Origin: Acetanaerobacterium elongatum | GTDB taxonomy: Bacteria > Bacillota > Clostridia > Oscillospirales > Ruminococcaceae | Assembly (NCBI RefSeq): GCF_900103835.1 | Contig: NZ_FNID01000009.1 | Coordinates: forward strand, 1 to 64,000 | Direction: 5' to 3' | Length of the DNA stretch: 64,000 nucleotides | Part shown: positions 165 through 54,730 of the stretch, in pieces | Position numbering within the stretch: position 1 is the first letter of the stretch | Layout of the letters: each line of letters opens with the position of its first letter | Program-made: the position numbers and the translations under genes | The notes under the pieces: model-generated | Seen by the model: only the letters and a program-made list of their open reading frames with translations | Database searches by the model: none | Told to the model about the DNA's origin: nothing

Positions 165-242
165 TGTAGGGGCGCGCATTGCGCTCCGTGCTTGCACCAC
201 CGCCCTTATAGATACCCGCGGACGGCCGATGGCCGCCCCTAC
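165..242. repeat. Modular hairpin repeat, copy 1
   Basis: Starts with TGTAGGGGCGCGCATTGCGC and ends with a GGACGGCCGATGGCCGCCCC unit running into CCTACC. The same two modules recur at 46.8 kb and elsewhere. Between them is a CCGCGG-containing spacer. No coding potential is credible here. Confidence 0.75.
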
Positions 243-18130: not shown

Positions 18131-18279
18131 CAAAAAAAGGCACCCGCAAACGCGAGCGCCTTTTTGGTGCCTGCTTGGATATTGGCAGGGCGGTGTATCC
18201 TGCATCTCAGGTACTTCATTAGAAGTGCGTCGGGAACCATTTCCGACCTCAATATCCAACCATAATATATTCATTTCAC
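18131..18279 (-). ncRNA. Candidate structured RNA A with consensus promoter and terminator
   Basis: Minus strand. A 10-bp perfect closing stem TTGGATATTG / CAATATCCAA encloses three hairpins: GTCGG/CCGAC, ACTTC-TAAT-GAAGT and CCTG-AGATG-CAGG. A terminator with T7 follows (about 18165-18131). Directly upstream is a perfect sigma-A promoter. The RNA is about 150 nt and no downstream gene is close enough to make it an obvious riboswitch: the next item is RNA B. I recognise no known family. Confidence 0.6.
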
Positions 18280-22884: not shown

Positions 22885-23070
22885 TGTACGGGGACTTCGC
22901 CCCCGTACGGGTACCCTTACCTCCGTCCACCAAGGGTTTGGGTGCAGGGGAGGCCATCGGCCGTCCGCGGTATTTATATAGCGCTCGGTTAGTCCTCAGA
23001 CGCGCAATGCGCGCCCCTACAGCGACTATCGCGTTTTCTTTGTAGGGGCGAACTGTGTTCGCCCGCATTC
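22885..23070. repeat. Modular hairpin repeat, copy 2 (between speA and speE)
   Basis: Contains the GTACGGGGACTTCGCCCCCGT module (22885 on), a CATCGGCCGTCCGCGG unit, a CGCGCAATGCGCGCCCCTAC unit (23001-23020) and TGTAGGGGCGAACTGTGTTC followed by GCCCGC (23041-23066). It separates two halves of the polyamine cluster in an otherwise gene-free 367-bp gap. Confidence 0.75.
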
Positions 23071-46460: not shown

Positions 46461-46925
46461 TGTAGGGGCGAACTGTGTTCGCCCGCAGTTTCACCGGTAG
46501 CCGCATGAATACCGCGTGGCATGGGGCGCCTGATAAGGCCCACCCCCAACCCCCTCCCGCATTTTAAGGCGGATATTGTCCAAGATTTCTTTATGCGGGA
46601 GGGGGAAAGATGTTCGGGGGCTTCGCCCCCGAACGGGTACCCCCGTATATTCACCGCATTCTGCGGTGGGATGTAGGGAGCGGCGTCCCCGATGCCCCAC
46701 GGATTTTGAACAGACGTGCGGTGAGGCATAGGGGCGGGGTTCTCCCGCCTGCGGTCTACAACCAAATCCACGACGGGAATGTAGGGGCGCGCATTGCGCG
46801 TCCGCGGTCTCACCGGCAGCCGCAGGAATACCGCGGACGGCCGATGGCCGCCCCTACAAGGGTTATTTCACATCGGCAGCGGATGAAACGTAAAAGGCGG
46901 AACGGTCAAGACCGTTCCCTACAAT
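46461..46925. repeat. Modular hairpin repeat, copy 3 (inside the glutamate synthase operon)
   Basis: A composite of at least seven modules: TGTAGGGGCGAACTGTGTTC-GCCCGC, a CCCCCAACCCCCTCCCGC / GCGGGAGGGGG pair, GTTCGGGGGCTTCGCCCCCG, a TGTAGGGAGCGGCG unit, GGGGCGGGGTTCTCCCGCC, TGTAGGGGCGCGCATTGCGC with GTCCGCGG, the GGACGGCCGATGGCCGCCCC unit and GGAACGGTCAAGACCGTTCC with CTACA. Fills the 568-bp gap. Frames here are repeat-derived, not genes. Confidence 0.85.
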
Positions 46926-47419: not shown

Positions 47420-48661
47420 ATGAAGAACTATGTAATACTCGGCAACTCCGCCGCCGCTGTCGGCTGCATCGAGGGCATCCGTCAGGTAGATAAAGAGGGT
47501 GTCATCACCGTAATCTCGAGCGAGCTGCACCACACCTACTCCCGCCCGCTGATCTCCTACCTTATATACGGCAAAACCGACGAGCAGCGCATGAAGTACC
47601 GCCCCGACGATTTCTACACGAAAAACGGCGTTACCGCCCTGCTGGGCAAAACCGCCGTGAAGATTGATAAAGACTTAAAGAAGGTAATGCTCGACGACGG
47701 CAGCGCCGTTGCCTACGACAAGCTGCTGGTTGCCACCGGTTCACGCCCGTTCGTGCCCCCCATGCAGGGGCTGGAGAAGGTGAAGAACCAGTTTACCTTC
47801 ATGACGCTCGATTCCGCCAAGGCCCTGCAGGCAGCGCTCACCAAGCAGAGCCGCGTGCTCATCATCGGCGCGGGCCTAATCGGCTTAAAATGCGCCGAGG
47901 GTATTCGCAAAGACGTTGCCTCCATCACGGTGGTAGACCTTGCCGACCGTATCCTCCCCAGCATCCTGGATACCGAGGGCTCTGCCATGATGCAGCGGCA
48001 CATTGAAAAAAGCGGCGTTGAGTTTATCTTAGGCGACAGCGTAAAGGAATTCTCCGAGCACTCCGCCGTTCTAAACAGCGGCAAGACAATAGATTTTGAT
48101 ATTCTGGTGATCGCCGTAGGCGTACGCCCCAACACCGAGCTTGTAAAAGAGGCTGGCGGCGTTGTAAACCGCGGCATTGCCACCAACGACCACTGCCAAA
48201 CCACCCTTGCGGATATCTATGCCGCGGGCGACTGCACCGAGAGCACCGACATCACCGACGACACCGTAAAGGTGCTGGCGCTTCTGCCCAACGCCTATAT
48301 GCAGGGCGAGTGCGCGGGTATCAACATGGCGGGCGGCGAAAAGCTGTATAACAAGGCTATCCCCATGAACGCCATCGGGTTCTTCGGGCTGCACATCATC
48401 ACCGCGGGCAGCTACAAGGGCGATGAAACCATCAGCAGGGGCAACGGCAGCTACAAGAAGCTGGTAACCAGAGACGGCCTTCTCAAGGGCTACATCCTCA
48501 TCGGCGAGGTTGCGCGCGCGGGCATCTACACCGCGCTCATCCGCGAGAAAACACCGCTTGATACCATAGACTTCGACCTGATTAAGGAAAAGCCCCAGCT
48601 CATGGCCTTCAGCAAAGCCGACCGTGCGCACAAGCTGGCGGAACACAGCCACAGCCTGTAG
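47420..48661 (+). CDS. FAD/NAD(P)-dependent oxidoreductase subunit of the glutamate synthase
   Basis: 413 residues, two-dinucleotide-fold flavoprotein of the nitrite-reductase/rubredoxin-reductase group: FAD motif YVILGNSAAAVGCIEGI (the usual GxGxxG is changed to GNSAAA), NAD(P) motif VLIIGAGLIGLKCAEGI and IYAAGDCTES near the C-terminal FAD site. Likely takes electrons from NAD(P)H for the neighbouring Fe-S subunits. Its stop codon TAG is part of a TGTAGGGG repeat start. Confidence 0.9.
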   Translation: MKNYVILGNSAAAVGCIEGIRQVDKEGVITVISSELHHTYSRPLISYLIYGKTDEQRMKYRPDDFYTKNGVTALLGKTAVKIDKDLKKVMLDDGSAVAYDKLLVATGSRPFVPPMQGLEKVKNQFTFMTLDSAKALQAALTKQSRVLIIGAGLIGLKCAEGIRKDVASITVVDLADRILPSILDTEGSAMMQRHIEKSGVEFILGDSVKEFSEHSAVLNSGKTIDFDILVIAVGVRPNTELVKEAGGVVNRGIATNDHCQTTLADIYAAGDCTESTDITDDTVKVLALLPNAYMQGECAGINMAGGEKLYNKAIPMNAIGFFGLHIITAGSYKGDETISRGNGSYKKLVTRDGLLKGYILIGEVARAGIYTALIREKTPLDTIDFDLIKEKPQLMAFSKADRAHKLAEHSHSL

Positions 48662-48778
48662 GGGCGCGCATTGCGCACCCGCGGTTTCACCGGAAGGCTT
48701 GGATTCGATGAGCCGCCAAATGCCCCTGCTTATCGGGAGGTTGTACGGATACCGCGGAAGGCCAATGGCCTTTCCTAC
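48657..48778. repeat. Modular hairpin repeat, copy 4
   Basis: TGTAGGGGCGCGCATTGCGC begins at the very end of the oxidoreductase gene and supplies its stop codon. It ends with a CCGCGGAAGGCCAATGGCCT unit followed by TTCCTACA. Sits inside the glutamate synthase operon. Confidence 0.8.
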
Positions 48779-50043: not shown

Positions 50044-50533
50044 CGCAGCAGGATGTAGAGGGCGGCGTCCCCGGCACCCCGCGGTCTGCAACCAAATCCG
50101 CGGCGGGAATGTGGGGGGCGATTATCAATCGAACGCAGAATTTCATCAGACTCGCGGCAGAAATGCAGGGGCGCGCATTGCGCGTCCGCGCTTCTAACAC
50201 AGCCGCATAATTTCCGCGGAACGGTCAAGACCGTTCCCTACGGCGTTTGCTTCTGCCCTCTCGAAACCTACCCCCAACCCCCTCCCGCAACGGCGCAGAC
50301 GAAAAATCCAAGCCAACCCATGCGGGAGGGGGAGAAATGTCCGGGGGCTTCGCCCCCGGACGGATACCCCCATATATTCGCTGCCCAGCGGCGGGATGTA
50401 GGGGGCTGCATCCCTGACGCCCGTGGCCTACAACCGAATCCTCGATGGGGATGTAGGGGCGCTTATTAAGCGCCCGCGGCTCCTACGCAACCGCAGATAA
50501 TCCCGTGCGAGGTTGATAACCTCTCCTACAAGG
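50044..50533. repeat. Modular hairpin repeat, copy 5 (upstream of glnA)
   Basis: About ten modules, including GGAACGGTCAAGACCGTTCC, GGGGCGCTTATTAAGCGCCC, a GTGCGAGGTTGATAACCTCT unit ending CCTACAAG, TGTAGAGGGCGGCGTCCCC, and the CCCCTCCCGC/GCGGGAGGGG pair with CCGGGGGCTTCGCCCCCGG. Occupies most of 49999-50600. Confidence 0.85.
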
Positions 50534-52689: not shown

Positions 52690-52710
52690 ACGGCTATAAC
52701 AATACGGCTT

Positions 52711-53484
52711 TAGGGGCGGACCTGTGCGTCCGCCCTTTCATTATATTTAAACCGTCCACGGTTGCAGGGAATGGCTGCCGCTTCTACCCCTCTCCCCCGG
52801 TTTCTGCCCCGTTAGCCATCGAACGTTGGGATAAGAATTGTAGGGAAAGGTCTTGGCCGTTTTGCTAATCCACCTCATAGCCTGATACATGTAGGGGCGC
52901 GCATTACGCGTCCGCCGCTCTGATGCAATTACAGATAATACACGCGGGCGATTGATAATCGCCCCTACAAGGAGAAACGAGAACTGCAATCCCGTTGCCC
53001 ACCGTTTTCCGCAATCCCCATCGCAGGGGCGGGGTTCTCCCGCCCGCGGAAATTCATCAAACCCTCAACAGGATGCAGGGGCGCTTACTAAGCGCCCGCG
53101 ATTCTAACGCAGCCACATAATTTTTGCGGAATGGTCAAGACCATTCCCTGCAAAAAAGCTGCTATTTACCCACCCCCAGAGCTTCGCCGCAGCAAAGCTT
53201 TACCCTCATCCCACAACAGGATTGGTTCTGAATTTTAAGCAACCATATGCGGGAGGGGGAGAAATGTCCGGGGGCTTCGTCGCCAGACGATTGCCCCCGC
53301 TTATTTCCCGGGAAACACCTGTTGTTCCCCCTGTGATATTTCCACGGCAATTGTAGGGGCTTCATTGCGCGCCCGCGGTATTTGTACCATCCGATTATAA
53401 CCGCACAAGGGCTGATAATTGCCCCTCCCGTTTTGGTACGCTAAAAACTTCTCCCTTACCCAAAAAACGGGAGGGGTTGGGGTG
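52711..53484. repeat. Modular hairpin repeat, copy 6 (longest array)
   Basis: Near-continuous array filling the 926-bp gap 52690-53615. Includes TAGGGGCGGACCTGTGCGTC, TGTAGGGGCGCGCATTACGC, GGGCGATTGATAATCGCCCC, GGGGCGGGGTTCTCCCGCCC, GCAGGGGCGCTTACTAAGCG, GGAATGGTCAAGACCATTCC and both orientations of the CCCCAACCCC/GGGGTTGGGG module. No gene: frames on both strands are repeat-derived. Confidence 0.85.
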
Positions 53485-54583: not shown

Positions 54584-54730
54584 CTGCAGGGGCACACATA
54601 TAGTGCGGCGCCCTCGGCGCCCCACAGTCTACAGCCAAATCCACGATGGGGATGCAGGGGCGCTTGCTAAGCGCCCGCGGCCTAACGCATTCGCTGAAAT
54701 ACCGCGGGCGCGCAATGCGCGCCCCTACAT
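54584..54730. repeat. Modular hairpin repeat, copy 7
   Basis: Starts TGCAGGGGCAC, includes GCGGCGCCCTCGGCGCCCC, GCAGGGGCGCTTGCTAAGCG and CGGGCGCGCAATGCGCGCCC followed by CTACAT. Begins 27 bp after the AEC stop codon. Confidence 0.8.

Follow-up and report, generated by a model that had tools for sequence, protein, structure and literature searches.

GTAG-type REPs of Acetanaerobacterium elongatum and matched in-frame hairpins within the genes of their likely RAYT transposases

The hairpin repeats of the window (the whole 64,000-nt stretch of Acetanaerobacterium elongatum DNA that was analysed) are very probably GTAG-type REPs arranged in mosaic BIMEs; their spread in trans is most likely the work of REP-associated tyrosine transposases (RAYTs) of subclass 2.4 / group 4 encoded elsewhere in the genome. 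Their identity as GTAG-type REPs follows from the GTAG foot, the GGG/CCC stem base, the short loop, the inverted pairs and the use of the TAG of the foot as a stop codon. We also tentatively propose that this RAYT clade carries its own candidate substrate in the reading frame, as an inverted hairpin pair bracketing the HUH codons, which would serve as a cis recognition or self-control site that tracks the specificity of the enzyme. The window repeats themselves are of a known kind, and the two-site rule in the RAYT genes is the part worth following.

Results

REPs of the window

The REP unit has a GTAG foot, a stem of 8-9 bp with mostly a GGG/CCC base and a loop of 3-4 nt, and the foot lies directly at the base of the short palindrome both in the window (19 repeats) and in the genome (106 places). 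A sequence-only reading of this DNA had described hairpins of one grammar at seven places. All seven hold them, some of its coordinates pointing to where a larger mosaic block begins, about 60-120 nt ahead of the hairpin, and each stem sequence that it quoted was found in the window. The sequence TGTAGGGG occurs 16 times against 1.33 expected, a number that none of 100 shuffles reached. A scan for a foot G[TC]AGGG, GTAGGA, ATAGGG or TTAGGG followed by a stem of 8-9 bp with at most one mismatch gave 19 footed hairpins. The reversed window yielded two, and 50 base shuffles averaged 0.54 and never exceeded 2. Some of the 19 have GCAG or TTAG feet, not GTAG. The copies with two mismatches at 166, 22998, 52891 and 53353 fall outside this count, and the window holds at least 19. 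Types are named here by the inner stem (D, CGC; A, AAC; B, ATT; F, GCC; E, CTT), and the C-type combines the stem GGAACGGT/ACCGTTCC with a loop of 4 nt. The elements of the window are as follows.

166..242, inverted REP pair: decayed D-type (GCGC) at 166 on the plus strand, F-type (GGCC) at 220-242 on the minus strand
22944..23020, inverted REP pair: F-type with GCAG foot at 22944-22966 on the plus strand, imperfect D-type at 22998-23020 on the minus strand
23042..23064, plus strand: A-type REP GTAGGGGCGAACTGTGTTCGCCC, the hairpin of RAYT-A
46462..46484, plus strand: A-type REP (GAAC/GTTC stem), an identical hairpin lying within and after RAYT-A
46781..46857, inverted REP pair: D-type at 46781-46803 on the plus strand, F-type at 46835-46857 on the minus strand, 54 nt start to start
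46899..46922, minus strand: C-type REP (4-nt loop), the hairpin of RAYT-C
48658..48680, plus strand: D-type REP; the stop codon of ORF 47420-48661 is the TAG of its GTAG foot (48659-48661)
48756..48778, minus strand: F-like REP GTAGGAAAGGCCATTGGCCTTCC, partner of the copy at 48658
50165..50241, inverted REP pair: D-type with GCAG foot on the plus strand, C-type on the minus strand
50453..50529, inverted REP pair: E-type (GCTT/AAGC) on the plus strand, degenerate GGTT/AACC on the minus strand
52710..52735, plus strand: degenerate REP-like hairpin with TTAG foot
52891..52968, inverted REP pair: imperfect D-type at 52891-52913 on the plus strand, B-type (GATT/AATC) at 52946-52968 on the minus strand, the latter being the hairpin of RAYT-B
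53023..53045, plus strand: REP-like hairpin with GCAG foot
53075..53151, inverted REP pair: E-type with GCAG foot on the plus strand, C-type variant on the minus strand
53353..53375, plus strand: decayed D-like copy with GTAG foot
54654..54728, inverted REP pair: E-type with GCAG foot on the plus strand, D-type on the minus strand

The claim that units recombine in different orders is borne out by the inward-facing pairs read in the window, with plus-strand copies at 166, 22944, 46781, 48658, 50165, 50453, 52891, 53075 and 54654: all nine join two unlike stem types. The REP blocks are accompanied by another composite repeat (TGCGGGAGGGGG ... CGGGGGCTTCGCCCCCG), found next to them at 46593-46657, 50320-50384 and 53247-53311, and a hairpin similar to that of this repeat is found near 22890.

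The stems had also been described as compensated. Five covariation measures were computed for the 13 distinct window copies and compared with 500 shuffles. Indeed, 97.1% of the cells are paired, against 74.0% after shuffling, and 23 cells are doubly changed, against 7.3; no shuffle was as high on either measure. Two weaker measures, double-change pairs (5 against 3.4) and further pair types (10 against 7.6), were each reached by 35 of the 500 shuffles. This covariation is mostly between a few separate stem families rather than drift about one stem. The stronger evidence for selection of the hairpin comes from the RAYT genes of many species, in which the stem changed at fixed sites yet stayed paired.

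It is very unlikely that the REPs are only transcription terminators or stabilisers of mRNA 3' ends selected for RNA structure. The window copies are intergenic and form strong hairpins, one of them right at a stop codon (48658), as such a role would suggest, but the GTAG foot and the GGGCG base are conserved and the footed hairpin is also found in frame in transposase genes and in inverted pairs. Among Rfam families at the gathering threshold, only T-box, skipping-rope, tRNA and glycine riboswitch were matched in the window, and none at the REP hairpins. The skipping-rope RNA lies at 18177-18257 on the minus strand (77.3 bits).

REPs in the genome of A. elongatum

The pattern GTAGGGGCG-N9-CGYCC was found at 106 places in the genome (53+53), and its reversed control at none. 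Among the 100 listed of these 106 places, the inner stems are CGC (25), AAC (25), ATT (24), GCC (8), CTT (7), CAT (2) and GTT (1), with eight not fully paired; in the same list all nine inward pairs at 54-56 nt spacing are of unlike types, a set that overlaps in part with the nine pairs of the window. The genome thus has the high copy number and the inverted pairs and clusters by which GTAG REPs and BIMEs are recognised. Moreover, the TAG of a REP foot doubles as the stop codon in ORF 47420-48661, in RAYT-A and in RAYT-B.

The sequence-only reading had set one outcome against its own interpretation, namely that all copies are decayed pieces of one larger transposon. This is not what was found. 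Longer composite blocks do recur (families D1-D6), but the unit common to the genome is a 23-nt footed hairpin at 106 places, with varied spacings and partner types, and of the ten IS200-type loci looked at, one has such a hairpin, a D-type REP at a distance of about 800 nt from its transposase match. Descent from a single larger transposon is therefore highly improbable. The multi-copy Pfam Y1_Tnp matches of the genome (34, one of which is RAYT-A) were considered as the RAYT and rejected, as they score as IS200-type. The assembly is interrupted by this separate multi-copy IS200-type transposase: a contig end is the location of at least 25 of the 34 Y1_Tnp matches.

As to the rest of the earlier interpretation, it stands that the hairpin rather than its sequence is kept, that the units are modular and that the family looks mobilised; what it missed was the kind of repeat, GTAG-type REPs, and the matching transposases, namely three RAYTs encoded elsewhere in the genome.

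Three RAYTs outside the window

The genome search that had been suggested for a REP-associated tyrosine transposase found three RAYTs, and searches of the genome for Y1 or RAYT gave no match on C56, the contig of the window.

RAYT-A: contig C29, 39407-39946
RAYT-B: contig C29, 34956-35450
RAYT-C: contig C72, 7376-7876

They are mutually unlike and each is present in one copy in the genome, which, like the syntenic flanks seen in several relatives, speaks to a degree against an IS200/IS605 insertion sequence, a kind of element with a multi-copy TnpA gene and subterminal hairpins at its ends. RAYT-A scores 74.4 bits against NCBIfam REP_Tyr_transpos (NF047646), just below the cut-off of 80, and 21.4 bits against Pfam Y1_Tnp (cut-off 23). 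The best PDB match of its predicted structure (mean pLDDT 84.4) is 4er8 (E 4.6e-8), a RAYT bound to a REP hairpin. The RAYT alignment (40 aligned rows) contains the HUH motif and an invariant Tyr column, and most rows stop soon after the Tyr helix, a few having longer tails. These RAYTs most likely belong to subclass 2.4 / group 4, a placement made from features in the published description.

Each of the three genes carries a REP hairpin in frame. In RAYT-A the GAAC/GTTC (A) hairpin occurs twice in frame (encoding VGANCVRP and, inverted, GRTQFAPT) and once at the stop codon; both encoded stretches lie in coil between core elements of the predicted model, the first at low confidence. RAYT-B has the GATT/AATC (B) hairpin in frame at the second site, as well as before and after the gene, and at its first site a decayed D-like hairpin without GTAG foot. 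In RAYT-C the C hairpin is in frame at the second site and present in both flanks. Flanking REPs of the own type, a feature of REPtrons, are thus found on one flank of RAYT-A and on both flanks of RAYT-B and RAYT-C, and the A, B and C types of the three RAYTs are all present in the window. The D, E and F types are common, yet no intact matching RAYT was found in the assembly, the decayed hairpin of RAYT-B being what remains of a D-like one at site 1.

RAYT-A and RAYT-B, the starts of which are 4.5 kb apart, are 62% identical, have different hairpins and each adjoin a flagellin-like ORF (named by eye). Perhaps they are a tandem pair that split in REP type.

In-gene hairpins across relatives

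The best 80 of 162 loci found in relatives, together with the three of A. elongatum, gave 83 RAYT loci. The query of this search itself bears hairpins, and the hairpin-encoded peptides were left out of the search patterns. In the RAYT search of the own genome, the hits L019-L021 were rejected, as they look like peptide matches to the REP sequence itself. The gene is patchy in its distribution, with 5 of 60 relatives besides the own genome matched at 1e-10.

Internal GTRG-footed hairpins were found at all 83 loci (2.4 expected from shuffled coding sequence) and at 0 of 31 other RAYTs (1.2 expected). With two mismatches allowed, the counts were 83/83 (10.0 expected) and 2/31 (3.2 expected). A test free of any hairpin model gave the same picture, with inverted 13-mers within the gene at 55 of 83 loci against 1 of 31, and 13-mers common to gene and flanks at 31 of 83 against 2 of 31. 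The control set consists of E. coli rayT and 30 high-scoring NF047646 loci from the phylum of the genome of L048, located by match coordinates; these 30 had the highest scores in a longer list of NF047646 matches from 120 genomes and are not a random sample, and at least two matches beyond them (G005, contigs C33 and C48) bear hairpins, judged by their place. As the scanner demands near-perfect hairpins, bulged REPs are missed; it found flanking hairpins at only 6 of the 31 control loci and none near E. coli rayT.

Six of the 83 loci were dropped before the tree was built, five being truncated or frameshifted (L046, L070, L073, L089, L098) and one fused (L047), which left 77 usable genes, among them the partial L037, L088, L093 and L095. 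A plus-strand hairpin before the HUH codons (site 1) is present in 68 of the 77, a minus-strand hairpin after them (site 2) in 70, and both in 61. The copies at the two sites are inverted to each other, and the distance between them is mostly about 150-200 nt. Orientation is nearly uniform: before HUH, 69 hairpins are plus and 3 minus; after HUH, 70 are minus and 3 plus. The reading frame is common to 64 of 68 hairpins at site 1 and 65 of 70 at site 2. Three of the four exceptions at site 1 are at one syntenic locus (L058, L061, L076), so re-insertion or indels are possible there. Position, orientation and usual frame suggest one old insertion per site, the exceptions needing indels or re-insertion. 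In hairpins with a 3-nt loop, positions 1-3 of the stem are G-C in 53-55 of 55 and in 53-54 of 54; GGAAC stems, which have a 4-nt loop, are without this base.

An action in the mRNA, whereby the hairpins would lower the translation or stability of the transposase mRNA or offer the RAYT an autoregulatory binding site, is unlikely. Both sites do form hairpins in the transcript, and REP hairpins have been suggested to down-regulate RAYT messages, as seen for IS200 transposases, in the available part of Di Nocera 2013 (PMC3733652). Against this, the GTAG-first strand is present in mRNA from site 1 only, since 70 of the 73 hairpins after HUH are inverted, and an inverted REP is not bound by the characterised RAYTs covered in the accessible text of PMC8266576. 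Nor does a plain mRNA hairpin need matched arms.

In 32 of 45 cases a REP in the flanks has the arm of an internal hairpin, where permutation gives a mean of 3.6 and at most 14. As flanking REPs are found at just 26 of the 77 loci, the in-gene hairpins are the more constant partner.

Stem types mostly change together

The same stem arm is present at both sites in 47 of the 61 genes that have both (20,000 permutations: mean 6.0, largest 16), and in 52 of 68 over all 83 loci (permutation mean 6.7). In L063 the plus-strand hairpin counted as site 1 sits at the N-terminus; leaving this gene out gives 46 of 60. Stem changes were counted on a tree that excludes the hairpin codons and has weak support, 11 of its 74 inner branches being starred and 30 open. 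On this tree the 61 genes need at least 29 changes of stem type at site 1 and 33 at site 2 with the arms set in register, or 30 and 34 with the arms as cut. Of the 20 path-disjoint tip pairs compared, both sites had changed in 16. Every one of these shows better agreement between a gene's own sites than between crossed ones, and in 10 the agreement is full; in the other four pairs own and crossed agreement are equal. In the 14 mismatched genes of the 61 the two arms differ at 1.43 positions on average, where random unlike pairs give 2.91 (for GGGCG stems, 1.5 against 2.03). This looks as though a change of single base pairs begins at one site.

Pairing was kept throughout, being seen in 98.9% of cells at site 1 (33 distinct hairpins) and 99.6% at site 2 (32 distinct), percentages conditional on hairpin detection, as only detected hairpins were counted. 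Doubly changed cells number 51 and 55 at the two sites, against 13.9 and 13.8 after shuffling. Doubly changed pairs and further pair types do not stand out at site 1, where 59 and 256 of 500 shuffles were as high; at site 2 the figures are 12 and 33 of 500.

The main rival to a cis site is copying between the inverted in-gene copies: one hairpin would be a copy of the other, or both would derive from dispersed REPs, through template switching or gene conversion, and neither would need a function. Inverted copies at the usual distance of the two sites are a good substrate for template switching. Some copying is also hinted at by the loops, which are alike at both sites in 29 of the 47 same-arm genes against 22.9 by within-type permutation (P 0.005), and by the frame of site 1, which varies between groups at one syntenic locus. 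However, the loops differ in 18 of the 47, the mismatched genes are closer than random unlike pairs (a small difference among the GGGCG stems), and the presence of hairpins at 83 of 83 loci is left unexplained. We thus regard copying as a real possibility, if a rather doubtful one.

Syntenic loci and dispersed copies

The RAYT keeps its chromosomal place in related species, after a UvrB-like ORF in the L029 group and a RecF-like ORF in the L081 group (names given by eye). L029, L035, L040, L058, L061 and L076 have flanks in common, the aligned parts being 76.8-90.0% identical in nucleotides; downstream of L058, the one alignment obtained in this group is with L029 and covers 222 nt. Their stem types at the two sites are ACC/ACC (L029), GAT/GAT (L035 and L040), CAC/CAC (L058 and L061) and CGC/CGC (L076). 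Likewise, L081, with GGGCGGAT at both sites, has flanks common to seven genes that all have GGAACGCCG at both sites, and L052 (CAC/CAC) and L062 (AGC/ACC) have both flanks in common (86.5-86.8%). Unlike types at one locus may reflect replacement of the whole gene at the same place; such replacement is possible because the RAYT core, with 51-70% amino-acid identity between unlike-type pairs at one locus, is less conserved than many flanking proteins. Horizontally moving RAYTs that carry REPs as seeds were also considered, a reading weakened by the conservation of the flanks in several species groups.

Twelve other genomes were searched for REP types, eight being completely listed and four (G001, G009, G010, G011) in part. 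In seven of the eight, the type or types of the RAYT itself include the commonest dispersed type. REPs of the internal type(s) make up 15/16, 10/13, 4/8, 13/26, 33/63, 35/68 and 59/90 of the REPs in these seven genomes, and the types of the other six genomes, taken for comparison, on average 0-17%. These counts include the copies within the RAYT; minus two, the third and fourth become 2/6 and 11/24. The eighth genome, G006, is left out of them and gives no support: the type of its RAYT, with 3 of 7 listed REPs, is as common as AAC, and two of these three have the spacing of the in-gene pair. In G002, all 12 GCT-type REPs lie back to back with GAT-type ones, 47-54 nt start to start, and 5 of the 17 GAT-type REPs are without such a partner. 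REP pairs of the same type occur in G007.

Discussion

Inverted REP pairs are reportedly dispersed in Pseudomonas genomes with a RAYT, in work of Bertels and Rainey from 2011. A REPIN is a symmetric inverted pair of one REP type that acts as a mobile unit. A likeness to the REPIN-RAYT systems of Pseudomonas (PMC3116915) is that the RAYT keeps its place here in several groups of related species. The difference is that here the matched inverted pair lies inside the RAYT gene, and flanking REPs are found at few loci (26/77). The GTAG-tagged REP superfamily and its BIMEs (Di Nocera 2013, PMC3733652) resemble the present repeats, in the part of that account available, in the GTAG foot, the short palindrome, the inverted dimers and the mostly intergenic location, and also in the supply of TAG stop codons by the foot, in repeat-specific REPtrons and in some copies lying within genes. 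The host and the stem families are other ones here, and the inward pairs join two unlike types. The Rickettsia palindromic elements treated in the same partly available source (PMC3733652) are likewise palindromic repeats in frame within protein genes; they lie in various genes, whereas the hairpins described here are mostly at two sites of their own presumed transposase.

The closest likeness is to TnpAREP subclass 2.4, which is RAYT group 4 (Quentin 2018, PMC6006769). According to the part of that paper available, it shares in-frame REPs in the transposase gene between HUH and Tyr, three G-C pairs at the stem base, the lack of a C-terminal extension and a variable beta3-alphaC region. In-frame REPs within RAYT genes of subclass 2.4 were thus already published in 2018 (PMC6006769). 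The same part of the source places the insertions generally between HUH and Y, with a beta1-alphaA insertion for subclass 2.3 and one at the end of alphaB for 2.4. In contrast, the site before HUH is here about as common as the one after it (68/77 against 70/77), the two are oppositely oriented and their stems mostly switch together. No description of a second fixed site, of its opposite orientation or of concerted stem switching was found in the literature searched, which covered few subscription papers, and Figure S10 of the partly available PMC6006769 may show part of this.

How the pair might work can be outlined by likeness to other RAYT groups, in which the single-stranded REP is cut and its complement is not, and GTAG and parts of the stem and loop are recognised to differing degrees (accessible part of PMC8266576). 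The RAYTs described here would fold and cut a single-stranded REP at the GTAG foot, and would read the stem at least partly, the inner stem included. Such stem reading is an assumption, since the same partial source reports that E. coli TnpAREP tolerates a swapped upper stem and that stem changes in S. maltophilia have no drastic effect (PMC8266576). The two in-gene hairpins would then stay matched as cis recognition sites obliged to follow the specificity of the enzyme, and, with two copies in opposite orientation, a cis site would be present on either strand.

If the tentative cis-site reading is true, changes of specificity would leave a readable record, in which in-gene hairpins and dispersed REPs switch stem together with site and orientation, and usually frame, fixed. 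RAYT-A and RAYT-B, 62% identical, 4.5 kb apart and with unlike hairpins, are a ready test pair for specificity. For the questions of how RAYTs recognise REPs and why genomes keep RAYTs, the 83 loci are a natural series of presumed enzyme-substrate pairs, which could be mined for a specificity code and is suited to simple binding and cleavage assays.
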